Source of the DNA: Bacteroidaceae bacterium
GTDB lineage: Bacteria; Bacteroidota; Bacteroidia; Bacteroidales; Bacteroidaceae
NCBI GenBank assembly: GCA_017616445.1
Contig: JAFZYE010000077.1
Span: 1 to 33,888, forward strand
Length of the DNA: 33,888 bases
Reading direction: 5' to 3'
Shown here one piece after another: positions 8,721 through 33,888 of this stretch. The translations under genes were made by a program, and so were the position numbers. The notes under the pieces are model-generated. The model made no database searches. It had not been told where the DNA came from and saw nothing but the letters and a program-made list of their open reading frames with translations. Positions within the stretch are counted from its first letter, which is position 1. The number at the start of each line of letters is the position of its first letter.

Positions 8721-9590
8721 CTAAATCTTAAGCTTGCTTGAATCCACAGCCTTGAAGCTCATGTCAAGACCTTTCACCGAATGGGTCAAGGCACCTACGG
8801 AGATGAAGTCCACACCACACTCGGCATAATCACGGATGGTATCGAAGGTGATGCCACCCGACGATTCTGTCTCGTACTTGCCATCAATCAGAGCTACAGC
8901 TCGACGGGTTTCCTCTGGTGTAAAGTTATCGAGCATGATGCGATCCACACCACCCACACGCAATACCTCGTTCAGCTCGTCGAACCCACGTACCTCGATT
9001 TCTATCTTCAGATCCTTACCTACCTTCTTGAGATACTGATGACAGCGAGTGATGGCGTTCTCAATACCTCCAGCAAAATCGATGTGATTATCCTTCAGCA
9101 GGATCATATCGAACAGACCGATACGGTGGTTCACTCCCCCACCTATCTTCACCGCCTCCTTCTCAAGCATACGCATGCCAGGAGTAGTCTTACGAGTGTC
9201 GAGAATGCGAGTCTTCGTTCCCTCCAGACGTTTCACATAACGGTTGGTCATCGTTGCGATACCACTCATGCGCTGGAGGATGTTCAGCATCAGTCGCTCT
9301 GTCTGCAACAGACTCTGAATCTTACCCTTCACGCTCATCACGATATCGCCAGGATGCACATGAGCCCCGTCGTGGATATACACCTCAACCTCCATCGTGG
9401 GATCAAAACGGTGGAACACCTGCTTGGCGATTTCCTCACCAGCGAAAATACCTTCCTCTTTTATCAAGAGCTTCGATTCACTCACTGCATCCGCAGGGAT
9501 GCAACAAAGTGTTGTGTGGTCACCATCTCCGATATCCTCGGCAAACGCGAGATCAATCAATCGGTCGTTGAGTTCTTCTACAGATAACAT
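8721..9590 (-). CDS. nadC: Nicotinate-nucleotide pyrophosphorylase
   Basis: A 289-aa quinolinate phosphoribosyltransferase that converts quinolinate and PRPP to nicotinate mononucleotide in NAD synthesis; cytosolic. It has the family's EDIGDGDHTT near the N-terminus. The active-site segments are LQRMSGIATMT, DTRKTTPGMR, GGGVNHRIGL and KDNHI in the middle, and the C-terminal barrel motif SSGGI followed by GVDFISVGALTHS. Length is normal for the family. A -7 element lies about 97 nt upstream (9687-9694). The other NAD genes (nadA, nadB) are not in this window. Confidence 0.95.
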   Translation of the reverse strand: MLSVEELNDRLIDLAFAEDIGDGDHTTLCCIPADAVSESKLLIKEEGIFAGEEIAKQVFHRFDPTMEVEVYIHDGAHVHPGDIVMSVKGKIQSLLQTERLMLNILQRMSGIATMTNRYVKRLEGTKTRILDTRKTTPGMRMLEKEAVKIGGGVNHRIGLFDMILLKDNHIDFAGGIENAITRCHQYLKKVGKDLKIEIEVRGFDELNEVLRVGGVDRIMLDNFTPEETRRAVALIDGKYETESSGGITFDTIRDYAECGVDFISVGALTHSVKGLDMSFKAVDSSKLKI

Positions 9591-9686
9591 CGATTTATTT
9601 ACTATTAAACGATTTAACTATTCAACAGCACTTTTCAATTTTATAGTTTTTACTTTGCCGCTTGCGGCTATGGTCTAAACGCACTG

Positions 9687-9694
9687 CAAAGATA
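9687..9694 (-). promoter_or_regulatory. -7 promoter element TATCTTTG (nadC)
   Basis: It matches TAnnTTTG on the minus strand, 97 nt before the nadC start, implying a leader of about 90 nt. Confidence 0.55.
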
Positions 9695-9791
9695 AGAATA
9701 ATAATTGAGTTAGAAGTTAGAAGTTATGAGTTTTTTTACTAAAAACCACAACTGTAATGCAAAAAAGCCACCCAACGGGTGGCAAACACAT

Positions 9792-9819: not shown

Positions 9820-10140
9820 TTAGTCAATCAACACAGCCGTTCCGCTACATGCAACCATCAGCATGCTGGCACTCTGTCCGATGGTCTCATAGTCGAAGTC
9901 GATACCAACTACCGCATTAGCACCCAGCTGCTCTGCTCGCTCCTGCAGTTCTCGCATCGCCGTCAGCTTCGCCTCAGCCAACGTGTTCTCATAGCCTCGC
10001 GAACGTCCGCCAAAGAAATCATGAAAACTTGCTGCAAAATCCTTCAGTACGTTTGCGCCAATAATTGTCTCACTTGTTACGACACCATAATACTTTTTGA
10101 TTGGGTGTCCCTCGATGGTTGGAGTTGTTGATGTAATCAT
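9820..10140 (-). CDS. YbjQ/UPF0145 family protein
   Basis: A 106-aa protein of the YbjQ family (UPF0145, sometimes called heavy-metal-binding), which forms pentameric rings; its biochemical role is not established. Family signatures are GVVTSETIIGANVLKDF near residues 20-36, FGGRSRGYENTL, and ANAVVGIDFDYE followed by MLMVACSGTAV. No signal peptide or membrane segment was seen. It has its own -7 element at 10212-10219 and so is probably transcribed separately from the upstream GH3 operon. Confidence 0.9.
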   Translation of the reverse strand: MITSTTPTIEGHPIKKYYGVVTSETIIGANVLKDFAASFHDFFGGRSRGYENTLAEAKLTAMRELQERAEQLGANAVVGIDFDYETIGQSASMLMVACSGTAVLID

Positions 10141-10211
10141 AATCGTCTTTTTTTACATTTTATATTTTACATTCGTTTTACCCATTAGACGCAGCAACTA
10201 CGGAAAAGCTA

Positions 10212-10219
10212 CAAAACTA
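10212..10219 (-). promoter_or_regulatory. -7 promoter element TAGTTTTG
   Basis: It matches TAnnTTTG on the minus strand, 72 nt before the YbjQ-family start. Confidence 0.5.
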
Positions 10220-10252
10220 TTCAACTTTTTTTGATTTGCGGTTGAAATCCGA

Positions 10253-12877
10253 TTATTTGAGTCGAACGATACTCTTCTGCAACGTGCTGTCATCACTGGA
10301 CGGACCTACCATCAGCTGATACTCGCCTGGCACGAAATGTATAGTGTTGGTTTGGGTATCCCAACTCTCAAGGCATTTACGAGGCATGGCAATAGTGACT
10401 GTGCGGGTCTCACCTGGCTTTAGGGTCACCTGCTGATAACCGCAAAGTGTTTTCAGCGGACCGTCTTTGTCTGCCGTTCGACGGAAATAGACTTGTACGG
10501 TCTCGGTTCCTTCAACATGACCCGTGTTCTTAACCGTGAGACGAACCTCAACCTTCTCGTCCTTGATTTGTTTGATTTTTATATTGCCAAAAGCAAATGT
10601 CGTGTAACTCAAACCATGACCGAAAGGGAACAGCGGATCCCCAGTGAAGTAGCGGTAAGTGCGGTTCGTCATCGTATAGTCAAGGAAATCGGGCAACTGC
10701 TCTGTATTGCGATAGAACGTCACAGGTAGTTTTCCGCTTGGATTATAGCGTCCTGTGAGTACGTCAGCCAAGGCAGCACCTCCCTGCTCACCATCGTACC
10801 ACCACTGAAGGATGGCATCACAAGTCTCCATCTCAGGAGTCATCGCCACAGCACCACCACTACAATTGACAAACACAACCTTCTTACCTGCCTCATGCAG
10901 CCAACGCAACACATCGCGCTGAGCCTGTGGCAGTTCGATGCTTGTACGGTCACCACCTCGGAAACCTGACTCGCTGACACGCATCTCCTCCCCTTCCAAA
11001 CGGGGTGAGATGCCACCGATGAAGATGATTGTCTGAGCCGCCCCAACCTGCGCCAACAGCTCCTGCGACGTAGGTGTAGCCTTATGCTGGATGTCGAAAT
11101 TCAAGGCACCATAGCCCGTCTCTTGTACGTATTCTATCTGGATGCGATATTTCTGTCCTGTCTTAACGTCAATCTCTTGCTGTGCCTGCTGGATACGCTG
11201 ACGTGCCTGCCAGAGGTTAACAATCGTGTCACCATTGATTAGCAGACGCAACTTATCATCACCGCTGATGGTGAAGATGAGTGTCTCATCGCGGGTCGGA
11301 GTAAGTGTACCATCGAGGCGAGCGGAAAAATTCTCAAGGTTGACGCCTGGTGCAAAGACGGTATTACCCCCATTACTCAGTTTGACTGGCTCGGACATCG
11401 TAACAGTCGTGACAGGTGCACCACTCATTTCTGTGTTGTTATAGTAAATCGCCTGCATGCCTGCGTTGCCTTGGGGAGACGTTATCTGTCCAAAACGGCT
11501 CTCGATGCTCTCGTTACGGGTCAGTCCGCAGCCCAACACATAGGGTACATTACCCAACTGTTGACGGATACCTTCAAGAGCGGTGACGGTCTTCGTCGGA
11601 TAGCCGGCATAGTTTCCCCATTGCATCACGGAATCATTGGCATTGGGACCCATCACGACGAGTTGAGAGTTGAGAGTTGAAAGTTGAGAGTTCAATGGTA
11701 GTACGCCATTGTTCTTCAACAAAACGATGCTCTTGCGAGCCATGTCAAGAGCCAGTTGCTTGTGCTCCTTCGAGGCAACAACACTCTCAGGAATCTTTGT
11801 CCACGACACATGGTCATCGCTGTCGAAATCGCCCACTTCCATACGGGCAATAAGCAGACGACGAAGTGAACGGTCGAGATCTGCCTCTTTGATGTCGCCA
11901 CGTCGTACAGCATCGGGCAGATGACGATATTCCGAACCACACTCGACATCAGTACCAGCCAATACGGCCTGTGCCGAGGCTTCCTCACTATCCTTTGCTG
12001 TATTGTGCCAACGGGGCAGGAAGTCGCGAATGGCACCGCAGTCGCTGGTAATCAACCCCTTGAAACCCCATTCGTCACGAAGAATTTGTTGCTCATAGCG
12101 AGTCTGACTGCAACAGGGCTGTCCATCGATACGCTGATAAGCACACATCACCTCTGCCACATCACCCTCCTGGACCAACGCCTTGAAGGCGGGCAGATAG
12201 GTCTCCCACAGGTCGCGTTCAGGCAGTTCTTCTACGTTAAACGTGTGACGATTCCACTCCGGTCCGCTATGTACAGCGAAATGCTTGGCACAAGCCAACA
12301 ACTTCTTGTAGTCGCCAAGCGGTTTACCTTCGTAGCTATAGCCCTGCAGACCACGCACCACAGCAAGTCCCATCTTCGATGTCAAGAAAGGGTCTTCGCC
12401 ATAAGTCTCCTGACCACGTCCCCAACGTGGGTCACGAAAGATATTGATATTAGGTGTCCAGAACGACAAGCTCTGATAGCGACGGATGTTACCCGATTGT
12501 TTGGCCTGCTGTGCTTTCACACGAGCCTCATCGCTTACTGCAGTGAAAACCCTGTGCAGCAAGGCATCGTCCCATGATGCAGCCATCGCCATCGTGATGG
12601 GAAATACTGTAGCATAGCCATTACGCCCCACTCCGTGCAACGCCTCGTTCCACCATTGGAACTGAGGAATCTGCAAACGCTCGATAGCTGGCGATGTATC
12701 CATCATCAGTCGCACCTTCTCTTCAAGGGTCAAACGCTTCAACAAGTCATCTGCACGTTGTTCGGACGTAAGTTGGGGATTGAGGTATGGTAATATCTGA
12801 GCGGTGAGCAGCGAAGTACCACTCATAAACGCCAAACTAAGGATGATGCGTTTTATTTGTTTCTTTGTCATAATCAT
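10253..12877 (-). CDS. GH3 beta-xylosidase/glucosidase with PA14 insert
   Basis: An 874-aa exported glycoside hydrolase. It has a signal peptide (to about residue 26), a GH3 N-terminal barrel with NINIFRDPRWGRGQETYGED and the nucleophile D279 in GLITSDCGAI, and a GH3 C-terminal domain interrupted by a PA14 domain at about 470-610. The segment GGISPRLEGEEM (621-632) belongs to the second half. A fibronectin-III-like end covers about 775-860. This build matches Prevotella xylan-degrading enzymes such as Xyl3A, so beta-xylosidase is more likely than beta-glucosidase; substrate is inferred. Residues 396-406 (NSQLSTLNSQL) are a heptamer-repeat insertion between LPL and VVMGPNAND. It lies 20 nt downstream of the CE1 esterase, forming a hemicellulose operon. 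Confidence 0.92.
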   Translation of the reverse strand: MIMTKKQIKRIILSLAFMSGTSLLTAQILPYLNPQLTSEQRADDLLKRLTLEEKVRLMMDTSPAIERLQIPQFQWWNEALHGVGRNGYATVFPITMAMAASWDDALLHRVFTAVSDEARVKAQQAKQSGNIRRYQSLSFWTPNINIFRDPRWGRGQETYGEDPFLTSKMGLAVVRGLQGYSYEGKPLGDYKKLLACAKHFAVHSGPEWNRHTFNVEELPERDLWETYLPAFKALVQEGDVAEVMCAYQRIDGQPCCSQTRYEQQILRDEWGFKGLITSDCGAIRDFLPRWHNTAKDSEEASAQAVLAGTDVECGSEYRHLPDAVRRGDIKEADLDRSLRRLLIARMEVGDFDSDDHVSWTKIPESVVASKEHKQLALDMARKSIVLLKNNGVLPLNSQLSTLNSQLVVMGPNANDSVMQWGNYAGYPTKTVTALEGIRQQLGNVPYVLGCGLTRNESIESRFGQITSPQGNAGMQAIYYNNTEMSGAPVTTVTMSEPVKLSNGGNTVFAPGVNLENFSARLDGTLTPTRDETLIFTISGDDKLRLLINGDTIVNLWQARQRIQQAQQEIDVKTGQKYRIQIEYVQETGYGALNFDIQHKATPTSQELLAQVGAAQTIIFIGGISPRLEGEEMRVSESGFRGGDRTSIELPQAQRDVLRWLHEAGKKVVFVNCSGGAVAMTPEMETCDAILQWWYDGEQGGAALADVLTGRYNPSGKLPVTFYRNTEQLPDFLDYTMTNRTYRYFTGDPLFPFGHGLSYTTFAFGNIKIKQIKDEKVEVRLTVKNTGHVEGTETVQVYFRRTADKDGPLKTLCGYQQVTLKPGETRTVTIAMPRKCLESWDTQTNTIHFVPGEYQLMVGPSSDDSTLQKSIVRLK
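11660..11694 (-). repeat. 35-bp heptamer block inside the GH3 gene
   Basis: Five 7-nt units (GAGTTGA x3, AAGTTGA, GAGTTCA on the plus strand, i.e. TCAACTC on the coding strand) make exactly 35 bp, the same length and heptamer type as the block in trmN. The frame is preserved. Confidence 0.9.
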
Positions 12878-24410: not shown

Positions 24411-24515
24411 TTTATGCATTATGCATTCTTCATTATGCATTGACTAAAGTCTAATTCTCTTAACTCTTAATTCTTAACTCTTAATTCTTAACTCTTAACT
24501 CTTAACTTCTAACTC
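24411..24515. repeat. ATTATGCATT units plus TTAACTC heptamer tract
   Basis: Two or three ATTATGCAT units are followed by a long run of TTAACTC/TTAATTC heptamers (about 24459-24515). The tract overlaps the last codons (EVKS) and stop of the AlkD-like gene. Confidence 0.8.
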
Positions 24516-25277
24516 CATCCATTCCTTACGTTCCTTATCCGACATCTTTTCAATGGCATAGCGAAGCATGGTTCGCGGCATTTCGTGAGCATGCTGACGA
24601 AGAAACTCTCGCAACAAATCCATAGATACACGCTTACCCATTTCTCTAAGCATCCAGCCCACTGCCTTGTGCATCAAGTCGTGTGGATGATGCAGATGAA
24701 CCTCTGCATATCTCAGACACCACGACGGGTCGCCCATCTGCGAGGTCTTCCACGTACAGACAATACTCATGCGCTGCTTCCACAGACAAGGGCTGGCAGC
24801 AAGTTCATCCAACATTTTTCGTTTATACTCAAAATCCTGGGTTTCTTCCCCCCTTAGAGGGGATAAGAGGGAGGCTCCCAATATCTTTGGTGCCGACAAG
24901 TCCACCAAATCCCAGTTATTCGCCTGCTCTGCATATTGCAGATACATCGTCACAATCTCGTCGCGTTTCCTGATAGCGTTTGTATCATTCTCTAATCGCT
25001 TCGTTGCCAGTTTCTCGAACTTCGCCACAAGAATCAAGAACCCACAGAGTCTCACCTCATGCCAGCGGTTCATCAACAACACAGGGATCTCCTCCATTGG
25101 AAAATCCACCCCAGCCGCCTTCACCACTTCCCGTGTCTGTGGCACCTTCAGCCCCAGAAACTCATCGCCTTCCCCATAATCGCCAGGCCCCGTCTTAAAG
25201 AAGCCCATCAACACCTGCCGCTGCTTCTCGTTCTGCAGCGACTCCATATATTCGATGATTTCCTGTGCTTTCGTCAT
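24495..25277 (-). CDS. AlkD-like DNA alkylation repair protein
   Basis: A 260-aa all-helical HEAT-like repeat protein of the DNA alkylation repair (AlkC/AlkD) family, which removes alkylated purines. Typical segments are LGLKVPQTREVVK, EVRLCGFLILVAKF, NNWDLVDLSAPKILG, WKQRMSIVCTW, HDLMHKAVGWMLREMGK and PRTMLRYAIEKM. Residues about 136-149 (SLLSPLRGEETQDF) interrupt the usual link between KILG and the next helix. They are encoded by a C-run/G-run palindrome (24850-24862) and its flanks, also found in intergenic DNA of this window. The C-terminal codons overlap a heptamer tract. The frame is intact, so the protein is probably functional. Confidence 0.88.
   Translation of the reverse strand: MTKAQEIIEYMESLQNEKQRQVLMGFFKTGPGDYGEGDEFLGLKVPQTREVVKAAGVDFPMEEIPVLLMNRWHEVRLCGFLILVAKFEKLATKRLENDTNAIRKRDEIVTMYLQYAEQANNWDLVDLSAPKILGASLLSPLRGEETQDFEYKRKMLDELAASPCLWKQRMSIVCTWKTSQMGDPSWCLRYAEVHLHHPHDLMHKAVGWMLREMGKRVSMDLLREFLRQHAHEMPRTMLRYAIEKMSDKERKEWMELEVKS
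24850..24862. repeat. G/C-rich palindromic repeat inside the AlkD-like gene
   Basis: CCCCTTAGAGGGG followed by ATAAGAGGGAGG lies in frame. It resembles the intergenic copies at 616-644 and 8698-8711. Confidence 0.7.
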
Positions 25278-26968: not shown

Positions 26969-27835
26969 ATGTTTAGTGGGATTCCCATCTCTGAATTTGT
27001 AGACATCATCCTATCGGGCAACAAGGGCGATGAGGCGATGTACTATTTGTTGCATCACCGTCTCAACCATCAGTTGCGCGAGCAGTATGATGTCTACAAC
27101 CTATATGATGACTTTGAGGATATAGTCGAGGACTATTTCCTTTATCTTCGCGAGGGTAAAGAAGGTAAAAATCGCCATCCCTATCAGTCCTTACGGCATA
27201 TCAAGAAGAAGGAATCCTTCGAAACATGGTTGACAAATACATTTCGTAATTATTTGTCCAATCGCTCTGAAGCAGAAAAGCATGTCAGCTATAAAGAATT
27301 GGATGATAGGACAACTAGTCAGGAACAGATTTCGCCAAAGAATGATGAAGAGAAACTTGCTATCGCGTCTCAACTGATTGCATACGCCCATCAGGTCTTA
27401 TACCCTCGCAGTCGTTTCATCTTCCTCCGGTCACTACTTACAATGCTCAATAAGCAACGAGCAATTTCTGACAAGGAGATGGCAGAAGCGCTTGGTATGA
27501 CACACATCGCCTATCGTGTTACTGTTCATCGTATGAAGTACAATCTTACCAAGTTTTACAAAAGGTTACAACATGGTGAGCACCTTAATCTCAACGAGGA
27601 ACACCGCCAGATGGCCAGCGCTATCAACGATGATTTCACGAACCTCTACCCTATTCTTTTCAATTATTACATGCGATGTATTGATACTTTGAAGACAAGT
27701 ATAGCAGTAAAGAACCTACGTCAGCAATATCTGGATGAAAGAGGCTTCGAAGTTCACGAGCAAGACTCCTTCATCACACACCTATCTATTACTACGTTTT
27801 GGAACAAACTGAATCTGCAGTTCCTTTCCTTATAA
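26969..27835 (+). CDS. Sigma-like regulator downstream of rubrerythrin
   Basis: A 288-aa protein, larger than standard ECF sigma factors (about 190 aa). The N-terminal half has an acidic helical segment (NLYDDFEDIVEDYFLYLREGKEG) followed by SFETWLTNTFRNYLSNR, which resembles sigma region 2. Residues about 160-195 (ISDKEMAEALGMTHIAYRVTVHRMKY) form a helix-turn-helix like sigma region 4. The C-terminal 90 residues have no recognised domain. I call it a divergent sigma-70-like factor; a non-sigma DNA-binding protein is possible. It lies 12 nt after rubrerythrin with no promoter between, so it is expressed with it and may respond to the same oxidative signal. Confidence 0.6.
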   Translation: MFSGIPISEFVDIILSGNKGDEAMYYLLHHRLNHQLREQYDVYNLYDDFEDIVEDYFLYLREGKEGKNRHPYQSLRHIKKKESFETWLTNTFRNYLSNRSEAEKHVSYKELDDRTTSQEQISPKNDEEKLAIASQLIAYAHQVLYPRSRFIFLRSLLTMLNKQRAISDKEMAEALGMTHIAYRVTVHRMKYNLTKFYKRLQHGEHLNLNEEHRQMASAINDDFTNLYPILFNYYMRCIDTLKTSIAVKNLRQQYLDERGFEVHEQDSFITHLSITTFWNKLNLQFLSL

Positions 27836-29506: not shown

Positions 29507-30010
29507 TTATTGTTTCACCCAAATCAACTTCTCCGTATCATACCTCCTCCTCTTAGCTTCTGCTAGAATGGCTGCTTTCACATCATCCTCCAACTTCGGA
29601 GTGCGAGACAGTATCCACAGATAATCATCACTGCCACTACCGATGAGTGCATATTGATAAGCGGAGTCGAGCATCATCACACGATAGTCTGAATAGAACG
29701 GCCCAAAGAACGACACACGTAACAAAGCAGGCGTATCGGTCAATTTCCCGATACCCTCTGCCTCCTCAGGTTCTCCATCCTTGATACCCGTATTCAGTAC
29801 ATCAATCTTGCCATCCTCTCGCAGCGTATAATTTGCCTTACAGAAATCCATACCCTGCTCAAAGCTGTGGTCAAACCGAGCAATCTCATACCAATCGCCC
29901 AGGTAGCGATTCAAATCCAGTGAATCCACCACCGAGTTGTCTACCGTCAGCTGCCCGCCGCAAGCAGTCAACACAAGTGTCATCAGCGCAAACAATACGT
30001 TTTTCTTCAT
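29507..30010 (-). CDS. blc: Bacterial lipocalin lipoprotein
   Basis: A 167-aa Blc-type lipocalin anchored by a lipoprotein signal (VLTAC, lipidated C17). The lipocalin signature YLGDWYEIARFDHSFEQGM starts at about residue 35. Later strands include NYTLREDGKIDVLN, LRVSFFGPFYSDYRVMMLD, YALIGSGSDDYLWILSRTP and a C-terminal helix. Such proteins bind lipids in the envelope. It leads the putative operon with serB. A -7 element lies just upstream (30033-30040). Confidence 0.93.
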   Translation of the reverse strand: MKKNVLFALMTLVLTACGGQLTVDNSVVDSLDLNRYLGDWYEIARFDHSFEQGMDFCKANYTLREDGKIDVLNTGIKDGEPEEAEGIGKLTDTPALLRVSFFGPFYSDYRVMMLDSAYQYALIGSGSDDYLWILSRTPKLEDDVKAAILAEAKRRRYDTEKLIWVKQ

Positions 30011-30032
30011 ATTACATTGTTTTAATTGTGGA

Positions 30033-30040
30033 CAAAGATA
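30033..30040 (-). promoter_or_regulatory. -7 promoter element TATCTTTG (blc operon)
   Basis: It matches TAnnTTTG on the minus strand, 22 nt before the lipocalin ATG. Confidence 0.65.
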
Positions 30041-30099
30041 GAGAATTTCTCGCTAATACGAAAAGAAATACTTAAAAATAACACTTTTTCTACATTCCA

Positions 30100-30136
30100 C
30101 CATGTAACATTTCCATTTTTCCCATACTATAAGGGT
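30100..30136 (+). promoter_or_regulatory. Shared 37-bp upstream element, left copy
   Basis: It starts CCATGTAACATTTCC and ends CCCATACTATAAGGGT. 36 of 37 positions are identical to the inverted copy at 32402-32438; the one mismatch is at the base after TTTCC. It ends 29 nt before the 52-aa ORF. Weaker similarity continues on both sides (TTTCT..CATT upstream, AGTC.AA.AAAAA downstream). The last part, CCC-ATACTATAA-GGG, is an imperfect dyad typical of an operator. The usual TAnnTTTG is absent, so it may be read by an alternative sigma or a dedicated activator. Confidence 0.85.
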
Positions 30137-30165
30137 AGAAAGTCAAACAAAAAAAACAAATAATT

Positions 30166-30324
30166 ATGATTTTTATTATCCAAAATCGCATGGTGAGAAT
30201 CTATTACGAGAATAAAGCCCTCACTAAAGATTTCACAGAAGACCTCAACAAACGACTCAAAAAGTTGTTCCTCCCAAGTGCGCGAAAAGAACATCACTGT
30301 CCCATAACCCTAATCCGATTGTAG
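30166..30324 (+). CDS. 52-aa basic ORF, first gene of the shared-promoter unit
   Basis: An ATG at 30166 opens a 52-codon frame beginning MIFIIQNRMVRIYYENKALT and ending PITLIRL. It has a Lys/Arg-rich middle (DLNKRLKKLF) and no signal peptide or family I recognise. It lies 29 nt after the shared element, which is the reason for believing it is translated, and its stop is 2 nt before the ATG of the 230-aa ORF, suggesting coupled translation. It could instead be a leader peptide that regulates the next gene. Confidence 0.45.
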   Translation: MIFIIQNRMVRIYYENKALTKDFTEDLNKRLKKLFLPSARKEHHCPITLIRL

Positions 30325-30326
30325 AA

Positions 30327-31019
30327 ATGGCAAACACCATCCCTCAAGGTTATTTCTCAGAATTAACCACAATCCATCTGAGACCAAGATTTGCAAGCAC
30401 AAGCCGATGGCTACTCAGGTCCGTGGAAGCTATGCTGGCCTGCAAACTGACATTGGTTTACGGGCGCTATCACATGATGACGGATCTACGGTCACTTGTC
30501 GTCAGCGATTATCATGAATCTTACGAACATGCCGAGGTAATGGCCGACTTTATGAACTGCCTGTTGCCATTCCAGCATACCACTCCCTCAGACTTGATGC
30601 AATCTCGAGAGAGCTATGCAGACCAATCCATCGATATGTACAAGGAATACAAGCACTATTTGGAGCTGTTCGAAGGCGAAGGCTTCCTCCCCGAGATCGC
30701 CAAACAGTTCTGCAAGACAGTTTACGATGCTGATGACTACTACACCTTCAAGGCCTTCAGCAACCTTTATTATGGTGTATATGCAGAGACGCTCCTCCTC
30801 TATCAGTTCGAGAAGATGGACTATCCCACTTTTGTGGATCAGTTCCAAGAAATCAGTCTTTTCGAAAGAAAGCGCAAACCCCTGAAATCATCAGCCTTCA
30901 AACTATACCTCAAAACGATGCACAAGGTCGTAGAATTATACATATCCCTGCTGAATGAATATTTAACTCAAAGGACATTTGATGGAAAAGTCTCGTTTAA
31001 TGAAGCACGTAAAGGGTGA
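30327..31019 (+). CDS. 230-aa protein of unknown function
   Basis: I do not recognise this family. The protein appears mostly helical and rich in Tyr/Phe and acidic residues (YADQSIDMYKEYKHYLELFE, FLPEIAKQFCKTVYDADDYY, FSNLYYGVYAETLLLYQFEKM). A basic segment (FERKRKPLKSSAFKLYL) precedes the C-terminal helix. No signal peptide, membrane segment or catalytic motif is evident. It is coupled to the 52-aa ORF. It converges on the AAA+ ATPase gene, whose unit carries the same 37-bp upstream element, so the two are probably expressed together and may act together. Confidence 0.7.
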   Translation: MANTIPQGYFSELTTIHLRPRFASTSRWLLRSVEAMLACKLTLVYGRYHMMTDLRSLVVSDYHESYEHAEVMADFMNCLLPFQHTTPSDLMQSRESYADQSIDMYKEYKHYLELFEGEGFLPEIAKQFCKTVYDADDYYTFKAFSNLYYGVYAETLLLYQFEKMDYPTFVDQFQEISLFERKRKPLKSSAFKLYLKTMHKVVELYISLLNEYLTQRTFDGKVSFNEARKG

Positions 31020-31087
31020 TAAAAAAACAACACTTTAGAAGTGTAACGTTCTCCACTCTCCATAGTGAGTTTGTAGAGTTTTAAAGG

Positions 31088-31120
31088 AAAAGCCCTGGTG
31101 CTCATGCATCAGGACTTTTT
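31088..31120. terminator. Bidirectional terminator between convergent units
   Basis: AAAAGCCCTGGTG and CATCAGGACTTTTT pair (two G-U/mismatch positions) around CTCATG. T-runs exist on both strands, so it can end both the 230-aa ORF unit (plus) and the AAA+ gene (minus, stop at 31159). Confidence 0.8.
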
Positions 31121-31158
31121 AAGTAATCTATAAATATATTGTGAAATTGGACTGTCTA

Positions 31159-32370
31159 TCAGGAGACCAGCATCCCGCGATATAGCGACGGATTGTTCTT
31201 CTTCCGTAACAGGAGACAGAGGTGGGCGCTATCCTCATAGCGGTCACGCATCAGGAAATAGCCATCGGTATTGGGCTCTGTCTCGATGATGCCACGAGAG
31301 GTTGAAACATCGCGGATGAGAGTGGGCGAAGGACTTGTAAGGGTTGCGATATAGACTGAATCGAACTTGTCCTCCAACATATCCTCGTTGGTTTTCTTTT
31401 TGTTGGTCTTTTGGGGTTTATGAAGCCACTCGCTGACGGTCGTAGCATCATCCTCCTTCATGTGCTTATCGATGAAAGCCTTGATCTCCTTGTACCTGTC
31501 GAGTTCAGCGATGTAGTAGAACTCCAGTATCTCAAAGGCATGTTTAGCTGTTGGGATGTTCAAACATTGACTCTCTGGCAAACGGCCATGAATGTTCACC
31601 TCATCGACAAGAGCCTTGAGGATATCGATGGTTGATATTTCCAGCAAATCTACCTGTTCCAAGATACTCTTGCGCTGATTGGCATATTTGGGTAGAAGGT
31701 TGTCATCGAGATAATCCTTAACGGCTTTGGGCAACAGGTTACCAAATTCAAAGCGATACCGGATGCGCCCCGGACGGCCCAACAGATTATCATTGAGCGT
31801 CAGCTGGTTGGTGGTCAGGATGTAGAGCTTACGCATCTGGTTGTAGACGCCATCAATCAGTCGCAGAAGCACATCGTCGTCCTCGCCTTTCTTGAACGTC
31901 TTCTCCGCCTCATCAATGAACACGATACACTCGAAACAGAGTGACTGGAGGAAATTGACCAAACCTTCGTAAGGGTATTGCACAATGACTACAGGTAGGT
32001 CGAGCGCATTGCAGAGCAGTTTTGCCGAGAGCGTCTTGCCTGTGCCCTTAAGGCCGTTGAAGATAACCCCCAGGTTCTTCTCGCCCCTCACGAACACCTC
32101 CGATTCCCATGTCTTACGGATAGTCTGCAGCATCTCCTCGCATCCTAATTCGTAAATCTTGAAATTGAATTCAAAGGTATCACCGATTCTCTGCAAACCA
32201 AGTCGTGCGTCCATTGGGTTTTGCGATTTCACTACATTGAATACACCCTTTCCTGGAGTCTTCAGCAGCATCGTATCGCCACTGATTGGGAAGTAGATAC
32301 CTCCCTCATTCACCCATTTCTGGCGGGTGAGTTCCATGTCATTGCTTTCAATTCTATTCATACTACACAT
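31159..32370 (-). CDS. BCS1/FtsH-like AAA+ ATPase with extra C-terminal domain
   Basis: 403 aa from the ATG at 32370. The longer frame starts with GTG at 32403 inside the shared element; an ATG at 32361 is also possible. The N-terminal domain (about 1-75, IYFPISGDTMLLKTPGKGVF) resembles no family I can name. The AAA+ core has Walker A GLKGTGKT (106-113), Walker B CIVFIDEAE (148-156), sensor ILTTNQ, and RPGRIRYRFEF, which carries the expected arginine region of BCS1/FtsH-type ATPases. A Lys/Asn-rich linker (KTNKKKTNED) leads to a C-terminal beta-rich domain (about 335-403, ending PSLYRGMLV). Similar ATPases occur in phages and defence loci. No protease motif (HExxH) is present, so this is an unfoldase or remodelling type. 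It is co-regulated with the 30166-31019 unit. Confidence 0.8.
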   Translation of the reverse strand: MCSMNRIESNDMELTRQKWVNEGGIYFPISGDTMLLKTPGKGVFNVVKSQNPMDARLGLQRIGDTFEFNFKIYELGCEEMLQTIRKTWESEVFVRGEKNLGVIFNGLKGTGKTLSAKLLCNALDLPVVIVQYPYEGLVNFLQSLCFECIVFIDEAEKTFKKGEDDDVLLRLIDGVYNQMRKLYILTTNQLTLNDNLLGRPGRIRYRFEFGNLLPKAVKDYLDDNLLPKYANQRKSILEQVDLLEISTIDILKALVDEVNIHGRLPESQCLNIPTAKHAFEILEFYYIAELDRYKEIKAFIDKHMKEDDATTVSEWLHKPQKTNKKKTNEDMLEDKFDSVYIATLTSPSPTLIRDVSTSRGIIETEPNTDGYFLMRDRYEDSAHLCLLLRKKNNPSLYRGMLVS

Positions 32371-32401
32371 TTGTTGTTTATCGATTTTTATTCGACTCTT
32401 C

Positions 32402-32438
32402 ACCCTTATAGTATGGGAAAAACGGAAATGTTACATGG
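32402..32438 (-). promoter_or_regulatory. Shared 37-bp upstream element, right (inverted) copy
   Basis: On the minus strand it starts CCATGTAACATTTCC and ends CCCATACTATAAGGGT, and differs from 30100-30136 at one base. It ends 31 nt before the chosen AAA+ start, against 29 nt in the left copy. No further copy was found by eye in the window. Confidence 0.85.
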
Positions 32439-32505
32439 AAAATGAAGAAATTTTCAAAAAAATGTTTTTCTGTCAGTATTACCGATTGCTGTTGTTGGAA
32501 GGATG

Positions 32506-33888
32506 TTACTTTTTCAATGACTCCAGCAGACTCGTAGCAATCTCCGAATTCTTGAACCTGATGAGATTATCTTCAACAGAATGGAAACCAAGTATATTCA
32601 CGCTGCCGTACCAGATGATGCTTTTGTCAATGATGACGGCATGAAGGGAAAGATGCTCCTTGATCATCACAGAGATTCCTAGGTGCAGCAACCGAAGAGT
32701 GTCATCATTATCCTCTCTTGTATAAAGAACGATTTCAATGCCGTTTGCTGCTAAATCCACAAGCCGTTCTGCTATTCTCGAGTGTCTTCCAATATTTATC
32801 CTTGGGCATGAGGCAACTACGGAATGCTTGGTCTTTGCAAGGTCAGATATGAACGGCGGTTCAAAACTATGGCCATCATAAATCACATCGGTCGTTGGAA
32901 ACAAAGTGTCAAACATCTCGTTGTTTCGGATTCTATAACCAATGGAGGCATATCCCTTTAGACGTTTGCGGTACATAGACTCGCAAACGGGAACGCGGAT
33001 GTCGATGTAGTCATATACTTGAACGTCTTGTTTACTTTCAAATTCACGATGCAGACGGCCGGTATATTGGTTCACCATATTCTTTCCTGCGATAGGCGAT
33101 GCTAAGAACAACGTGTCAAGTCGGGCATAATCAAAACCCTCACCCACGTACTTGCCCGTGGCCACAATAACCAGCGGTTCCAACGGTGGAATAGATTGTA
33201 ACTGTTCCATCTTCTGCCGTTTCTCTTTGGTGCTCTCTGAGCCAACAAGTATAATTACGTTGGGGCAATGCGGTTCTATAAGTTCTGCCAATGTCGTAAC
33301 ATGTGCTGTCCGACTGGTCAAGATAATCGGAGAACGACCTTCCTTTAAAGCCTCTACAACATCTTTGACAATGAACAAGTTGCGGCATTCATCTTCCACC
33401 AATTGCTGTTCTACCTTCGTATAGGTAAGGTTCTCATCACCAACAGGTCGGAACGGTGTATAGCGAGGTACTAACAACCGACTGAAATTCTGACTCTTCA
33501 TCTGAGCCTTTGCATCAACTGTATATCTTATCAGGCCACATTGCATGAAAAGGATGGGTTGGTGACCGTCTTGGCGGAAAGGAGTAGCCGTCAATCCATA
33601 AACAAATTGGGCATTGACAGCTTTCATCACCTGTTCATAGCTGACCGCAGAGATATGGTGGCACTCGTCAGCAATCACCATCCCGTAATCCCTAACGAAA
33701 GGCTTTACCTCATTATCCGAGACATACGACTGCAAGAGAGCGATATCGATAATTCCATGGAGCGAATTACCTGACGAGCTGAGCGTCCCGACTGGAGATA
33801 GCGTCTTCTTTCGCCCACGCTTGTTTGGCACATCTTCAGGCCTATCGTCAATTATTAGGAATTCGTTGATCCGCTTTACCCACTGGTC
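32506..33888 (-). CDS. SF2 helicase with C-terminal PLD-like domain (partial)
   Basis: The frame is open to the right edge, so the true start and the N-terminal part (Walker A and anything before it) lie outside the window; 460 residues are visible. The GTG at 33831 is internal. Visible motifs: QWVKRINEFL near the edge, IIDIALLQSYV, DECHH (motif II), YGLTATP (motif III), VATGKYVGEGFD and QYTGRLHR (motifs V and VI). The last ~120 residues hold a phospholipase-D-like fold with LHAVIIDKSIIWYGSVN. The usual H-x-K of the HKD motif reads S-x-H here, so nuclease activity is uncertain. The architecture and wording of the helicase core resemble the helicase part of TOTE-type conflict proteins, which carry a primase domain at their N-terminus; that part cannot be seen. 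Confidence 0.85.
   Translation of the reverse strand, partial: DQWVKRINEFLIIDDRPEDVPNKRGRKKTLSPVGTLSSSGNSLHGIIDIALLQSYVSDNEVKPFVRDYGMVIADECHHISAVSYEQVMKAVNAQFVYGLTATPFRQDGHQPILFMQCGLIRYTVDAKAQMKSQNFSRLLVPRYTPFRPVGDENLTYTKVEQQLVEDECRNLFIVKDVVEALKEGRSPIILTSRTAHVTTLAELIEPHCPNVIILVGSESTKEKRQKMEQLQSIPPLEPLVIVATGKYVGEGFDYARLDTLFLASPIAGKNMVNQYTGRLHREFESKQDVQVYDYIDIRVPVCESMYRKRLKGYASIGYRIRNNEMFDTLFPTTDVIYDGHSFEPPFISDLAKTKHSVVASCPRINIGRHSRIAERLVDLAANGIEIVLYTREDNDDTLRLLHLGISVMIKEHLSLHAVIIDKSIIWYGSVNILGFHSVEDNLIRFKNSEIATSLLESLKK

Follow-up and report, generated by a model that had tools for sequence, protein, structure and literature searches.

Two convergent transcription units close to one end of the window (the whole 33,888 nt stretch of Bacteroidaceae DNA analysed here) are each preceded by nearly the same 37 bp sequence, in inverted orientation. 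This raises the question of what the shared element is, what reads it, and whether it makes the genes behind it partners. The features concerned are the following.

24495..25277, minus strand: AlkD-type DNA alkylation repair protein (by reading), separate from the sigma gene here
26969..27835, plus strand: divergent ECF-like sigma factor of 288 aa, proposed reader of the element (hhalign, TIGR02937)
30100..30136, plus strand: element copy 1, putative ECF-type promoter of ORF52-P230 (−35 TGTAACATTT, −10 CATACTATA)
30166..30324, plus strand: ORF52, a conserved microprotein (44–52 aa in four genomes, and the first ORF after the element in all four)
30327..31019, plus strand: P230, a protein of no known family, with homologues in rumen Bacteroidales MAGs
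31087..31120, no strand assigned: bidirectional intrinsic-terminator-like hairpin between the convergent units (folding energy)
31159..32361, minus strand: AAA+ ATPase (Pfam AAA; phrog_2376; by sequence closest to p97/BCS1 among solved structures)
32402..32438, minus strand: element copy 2, putative ECF-type promoter of the AAA gene (sequence comparison)

The two copies match at 36 of 37 positions; when the 400 nt around each copy were shuffled in pairs 200 times with dinucleotides preserved, the best 37-mer matched at 25 (mean 22). The similarity runs on into the leaders (54 nt at 89%, 30100-30153 against 32385-32438), and the region between the units (31075-31125) has folding energies of −18.6 kcal/mol (z −3.76) on the plus strand and −16.7 kcal/mol (z −4.38) on the minus strand, so that the inverted pair, its extension and the two-way terminator described in the initial annotation were all recovered, as was the imperfect dyad CCC-ATACTATAA-GGG within the element. 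The element is separated from the ORF52 start codon (ATG at 30166) by 29 nt and from that of the AAA gene (ATG at 32361) by 40 nt; the latter start was used following the 94.5% identical homologue in locus L035, and a nearer in-frame ATG lies at 32370. The sequence TAnnTTTG is missing, as had been claimed, from the 150 nt upstream of either gene. Since it was found within that distance for no more than 8 of 19 other window genes tested and was absent for 11, its absence alone says little. Within the window's assembly (2.38 Mb, about 70% complete), these were the only two copies found, either with a 35-letter pattern allowing three mismatches or with a sequence model at E ≤ 0.1.

The proposed search for the element in related genomes showed that it recurs, with accessory genes behind it, but that it is not restricted to the AAA/P230 pair. 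A model built from 12 aligned copies detected 22 at E < 1e-6 in nine of 23 genomes chosen for matches to P230, AAA, the element or the sigma factor; 12 of these had trained the model and 10 were new. They are distributed as seven in G302, three each in G301 and G222, two each in the window's genome, G096 and G308, and one each in G303, G203 and G312. Among 301 genomes of the family, the window's included, the exact pattern occurs in three, and the model with stricter filters finds the element in 13 at E ≤ 0.001 and in seven at E < 1e-6. It was searched for in viral contigs and not found there.

Two blocks of the element are conserved, TGTAACATTT and CATACTATAAGGGT. Geometry was measured on 16 of the 18 copies listed, those of L103 (G308) and L104 (G303) being left out; in the alignment, the L104 copy has an altered −10 block. 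The spacing from TGTAACA to TAC is 15 nt in 14 of the 16 and 16 nt in the other two, and a start codon follows the −10 by 26–36 nt in 13 (one lies at 12 nt, and for two none was found). In G301, the spacer of the copy before the AAA gene has diverged but both blocks are retained, despite the near identity of the gene itself. ECF-type promoters have a −35 with AAC, and the element has this form, with TGTAACA as the −35 and a −10 at a fixed 15–16 nt in all 16 copies measured. The Bacteroides housekeeping box, TAnnTTTG at −7, was seen in none of these strong copies, nor anywhere between −80 and the ATG.

These properties make it reasonably probable, in our judgement, that the element is an ECF-sigma-type promoter of ORF52-P230 and of the AAA gene, belonging to an accessory regulon and read most likely by the sigma factor at 26969-27835. 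The promoter would consist of the −35 block TGTAACATTT, a pyrimidine-rich spacer and the −10 block CATACTATA, followed by AGGGT near the presumed start; copy 1 would drive the ORF52-P230 unit, and the inverted copy the convergent AAA gene. An operator bound by a dimeric regulator (repressor or activator) and lying across a housekeeping promoter of non-consensus sequence could account for the imperfect dyads (ATGT-A-ACAT as well as CCC-ATACTATAA-GGG), and TAnnTTTG does lie downstream of four of nine weaker copies examined, a set that covered only L120 of the weak loci L111-L120. The conserved letters are nevertheless asymmetric (TGTAACATTT), the base needed to complete the palindrome varies, and the start codon follows at a promoter-like distance, with TAnnTTTG lacking from all 16 strong copies measured; an operator is improbable on these grounds.

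The leaders of genes for 523, 215 and 292 aa proteins (L109, L056, L099, L100) carry TTATAGTATG at the start codon, and that of a 91 aa gene has ATATAGTATG in its place. TTATAGTATG is the reverse complement of the −10 block (CATACTATAA), a pairing that could be read as part of an RNA switch, with the element belonging to the 5′ leader RNA. This is scarcely credible: TTATAGTATG is absent at the ORF52/P230 leaders, and the 80 nt searched upstream of the 16 copies contain no TAnnTTTG promoter. No Rfam match was found in 29900-32600 at E ≤ 1, and a known RNA element was rejected on this basis.

The genes preceded by the element in the relatives are varied. That for the 523 aa protein stands behind it in four of the five genomes with a homologue among the fetched loci (G301, G302, G222 and G303, the last with a microprotein in between; not G243). 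In G302, the element is followed by a small ORF and then a DUF6557 gene, while in G308 it precedes a DUF6557-like ORF of 86 aa and a truncated phosphoesterase-like ORF (both by reading). A copy in G222 lies before a MAD3-like ATPase, with the ATG farther off (168 nt), and in G203 a phosphoesterase-like gene and a small ORF are preceded by weak copies. Small genes of no known function are also among those preceded by the element. Neither of the two G096 copies has an evident gene behind it; they face each other about 85 bp apart (L057, 3028-3124) across a stretch free of genes, an arrangement resembling a collapsed convergent pair. The regulon would thus be a small accessory one of rumen Prevotellaceae-type Bacteroidales, its members mostly of no known function and some of them near defence-like or RNA/DNA-processing genes; these neighbours suggest that it may act in defence or nucleic-acid processing. 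Weaker variants of the element, found in genomes without this sigma factor as well (the single-contig G233 among them), were also seen before AlbA_2 (Schlafen-type) genes (L112, L110) and before RhuM-family genes (L113 and L120 by Pfam, L101 by reading).

The inverted pair brackets P230 and AAA, and might instead mark a mobile module with both genes on it, as its terminal inverted repeats or its recombination sites. The facing copies of G096 would fit such a module, as would two kinds of gene identified by reading, one for an IS110-like transposase next to a weak copy of G233 (L120), the other resembling REP-type transposases and located near P230 in L012, L038 and L040. This is very unlikely, as G302 and G222 also have copies arranged in direct orientation, every one of them ahead of a gene, and no recombinase was recognised among the window's ORFs when their first 160 residues were read. 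A phage origin of the AAA/P230 pair was likewise rejected: P230 was not found in phages or viral contigs, nor the element in viral contigs.

The shared element had been taken to mean that AAA and P230 are partners in one system, and this was not established. The convergent layout does occur in two other genomes, G301 (L035; 91% identity for P230, 94.5% for AAA) and G175 (L012; 57% for P230, 62–63% for AAA), which supports a conserved AAA/P230 neighbourhood. In G175, however, the pair is present without an element match at E ≤ 0.1; TAnnTTTG precedes its AAA gene, and a near match, CAccTTTG, precedes the other unit. An AAA homologue is missing at 13 of 15 P230 loci within the stretch fetched, at most 6 kb per side and in several cases shorter. 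With the window's genome set aside, six of the remaining 300 family genomes have a P230 match (two of them marginal), eight have AAA and one has both (p = 0.15). As the element also precedes other accessory genes in G301, G302, G303, G222, G308 and, weakly, G203, a partnership is not supported by its being shared.

ORF52 shares 52–59% identity with its homologues, and the conservation of such microproteins in four genomes suggests that it is a gene of its own. Its derivation from a 128 aa gene that precedes P230 in G175 was considered and rejected; in the ORF's frame, equal scores against the two relatives compared were reached by 39 and by 8 of 300 shuffles. P230 could not be assigned to any family described so far (its best match in PDB has E 0.22, and the best in Pfam, at E 0.02, concerns one of 11 members only), and PADLOC gave no match to P230 or ORF52 at E ≤ 1. 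Matches to P230 occur in seven of the 301 family genomes, counting the window's and two marginal cases, and at 15 loci of a wider contig search, two of which are the G175 and G113 contigs again. Where its relatives have named records, these are of MAGs whose titles give Prevotella, Prevotellaceae, Bacteroidaceae or Bacteroidales, and many of the titles also mention a rumen or forestomach sample. P230 adjoins McrBC genes in G235 and G222 (broken copies), lies a few kb from McrB-like matches in L048, and stands behind a DUF4379 nuclease-like gene in G113. Just upstream of P230 in L012 (G175) are two related small proteins of no known family (9391-9774 and 9900-10514), possibly of winged-helix type (by reading).

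The AAA protein matches Pfam AAA at E 1.8e-10, p97 at E 0.0037 and BCS1 at E 0.005, and its resemblance to the BCS1/p97 type is at the level of AAA-domain similarity; it also has distant phage relatives. In IetAS-type defence, the AAA protein IetA is paired with a peptidase, IetS. The AAA protein matches IetA only over about 33 residues (E 0.0017), and it was not assigned to this type. A GNAT-type sequence precedes the AAA homologues in L027, L028, L030, L031 (as two ORFs) and L032, recognised by Pfam in L030 and by reading in the others, and in L030 a DprA-like gene follows (by reading).

A single dedicated regulator for both units, as envisaged in the initial annotation, gains circumstantial support from the ECF-promoter shape of the element and from a rare ECF-like sigma gene 2.3 kb away (26969-27835). 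Three of four homologues of this protein match TIGR02937 (sigma70-ECF) at 1.2e-6, 4.5e-6 and 2.7e-5, with scores (28.2, 26.4 and 23.9 bits) that lie below the curated cut-off of 42.9 bits. Alignment by hhalign with five Pfam-recognised ECFs gave a probability of 98.2 (E 3.5e-14, 139 columns), and the homology includes sigma region 2 and region 4. For the proteins of the window and of L035, Pfam gave no sigma domain (Sigma70_r2/r4) at E ≤ 0.05, and the sole match of the sigma profile in PDB was an AAA ATPase at E 1.5.

The sigma gene is present in five of the nine element-bearing genomes, G301 and G303 among them, and in none of the 14 other chosen genomes (p = 0.004), and among the 300 family genomes close homologues occur in two, the element (E < 1e-6) in six and both in two (p = 3e-4); since the 23 genomes were preselected and the training sets of the sequence model (R1) and the profile (A3) overlap the genomes tested, these p-values are only indicative. 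In four of the five sigma-bearing genomes, the nearest element lies within 2.3 kb of the sigma gene: adjacent in G301, where the sigma stop codon TAA falls inside TGTAACA, and at 0.7 kb in G303, 1.05 kb in G222 and 2.3 kb in the window. In G203, sigma and elements are on different contigs, and a phosphoesterase-like gene lies behind the sigma gene. This proximity may in part reflect a common chromosomal hotspot (the SOD/ogt/AlkD region, by reading).

The element could then be an ECF promoter read by a different ECF, with the 26969-27835 protein no more than a neighbour in the accessory hotspot. Room for another reader is left by G302 (with its seven copies), G096, G308 and G312 (with a weak copy), in which no sigma match was found, and by G233, a single-contig genome with weaker element copies and no such sigma; in G312, an ordinary ECF gene stands downstream of the weak copy. 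Some of the element-bearing genomes may lack the sigma gene because of gaps in their assemblies. Close sigma homologues (E < 1e-100) are nevertheless rare, occurring in 3 of 301 family genomes, and all three carry elements, with the short distances given above; a different reader appears unlikely, if quite conceivable. Of seven further, weaker sigma matches, four are ordinary short ECFs, and another is a more distant relative of 300 aa (E 6.4e-12, no Pfam hit) in G034, a genome with no element at E ≤ 0.001.

In two relatives, G303 and G222, the sigma factor that we favour as reader forms the C-terminal part of a longer frame, continuing that of an AlkD gene with no stop between them. The fused AlkD homologue in L104 (G303) matches Pfam DNA_alkylation at E 4.2e-47, and two AlkD genes of G308 end at the apparent fusion junction, near contig ends (by reading). 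It is tempting to see in this a one-protein DNA-damage sensor and sigma factor, in which the AlkD-type domain would sense alkylated or phage-modified DNA and the sigma domain would activate transcription from the TGTAACATTT/CATACTATA promoter, inducing an accessory regulon for defence or repair (P230, AAA, the 523 aa gene, phosphoesterases and the microprotein), although we regard this as doubtful. In Ada, a methyl-accepting domain is joined to an AraC-type activator. The two cases are alike in joining a DNA-alkylation repair protein to a transcription regulator; here, the partners are an AlkD-type domain and an ECF-like sigma, and sensing is a proposal. If true, such a coupling of an ECF-like sigma to a DNA-repair domain would connect DNA damage with gene expression in an unusual way.

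Literature searches found no AlkD-sigma fusion, and the word 'alkylation' is absent from the main text of a study of non-canonical ECFs (PMC8999054). ECF41 and other non-canonical ECFs are likewise sigma2-sigma4 proteins with additional sequence (PMC8999054, PMC3426412) and have target promoters of fixed geometry (PMC8999054), but the protein described here differs in its N-terminal AlkD-type DNA repair domain (in two genomes) and its accessory-gene targets. TGTAACA as an ECF −35 has a precedent in the promoter listing for RpoE7 (ECF16) of S. meliloti, where the target promoter sequences contain ATGTAACA, letters that the element has in common with them at the −35; the listed sequences differ in having no CATACTATA-like −10, and the targets are other genes (PMC6180224). 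The Bacteroides housekeeping promoter, with TTTG and the −7 box TAnnTTTG (PMC7366714), is an AT-rich promoter of Bacteroidales, as the element putatively is, but TAnnTTTG is lacking in the 16 strong element copies measured.

What appeared as a sequence coincidence between two units can thus be framed as a defined and testable regulon, in which a promoter other than the housekeeping type and a candidate sigma factor are joined by a set of target genes with almost no known functions. The promoter would also be a handle for finding functionally linked genes of this kind, as its copies mark genes that lie apart. HipA-type genes occur near regulon genes in L035 (Pfam) and, by reading, in the genome of L036 and in L037, with HipB-like neighbours (by reading). 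In G104, which has no element match, a T4 Rnl2-type RNA ligase gene (Pfam; L016, 3949-5019) lies near a metallophosphoesterase-like gene and a relative of the 115 aa regulon protein. In the window itself, 32506-33888 holds a gene for a ResIII/RadD-like helicase with a weak PLD-like C-terminus, which is cut by the contig end.
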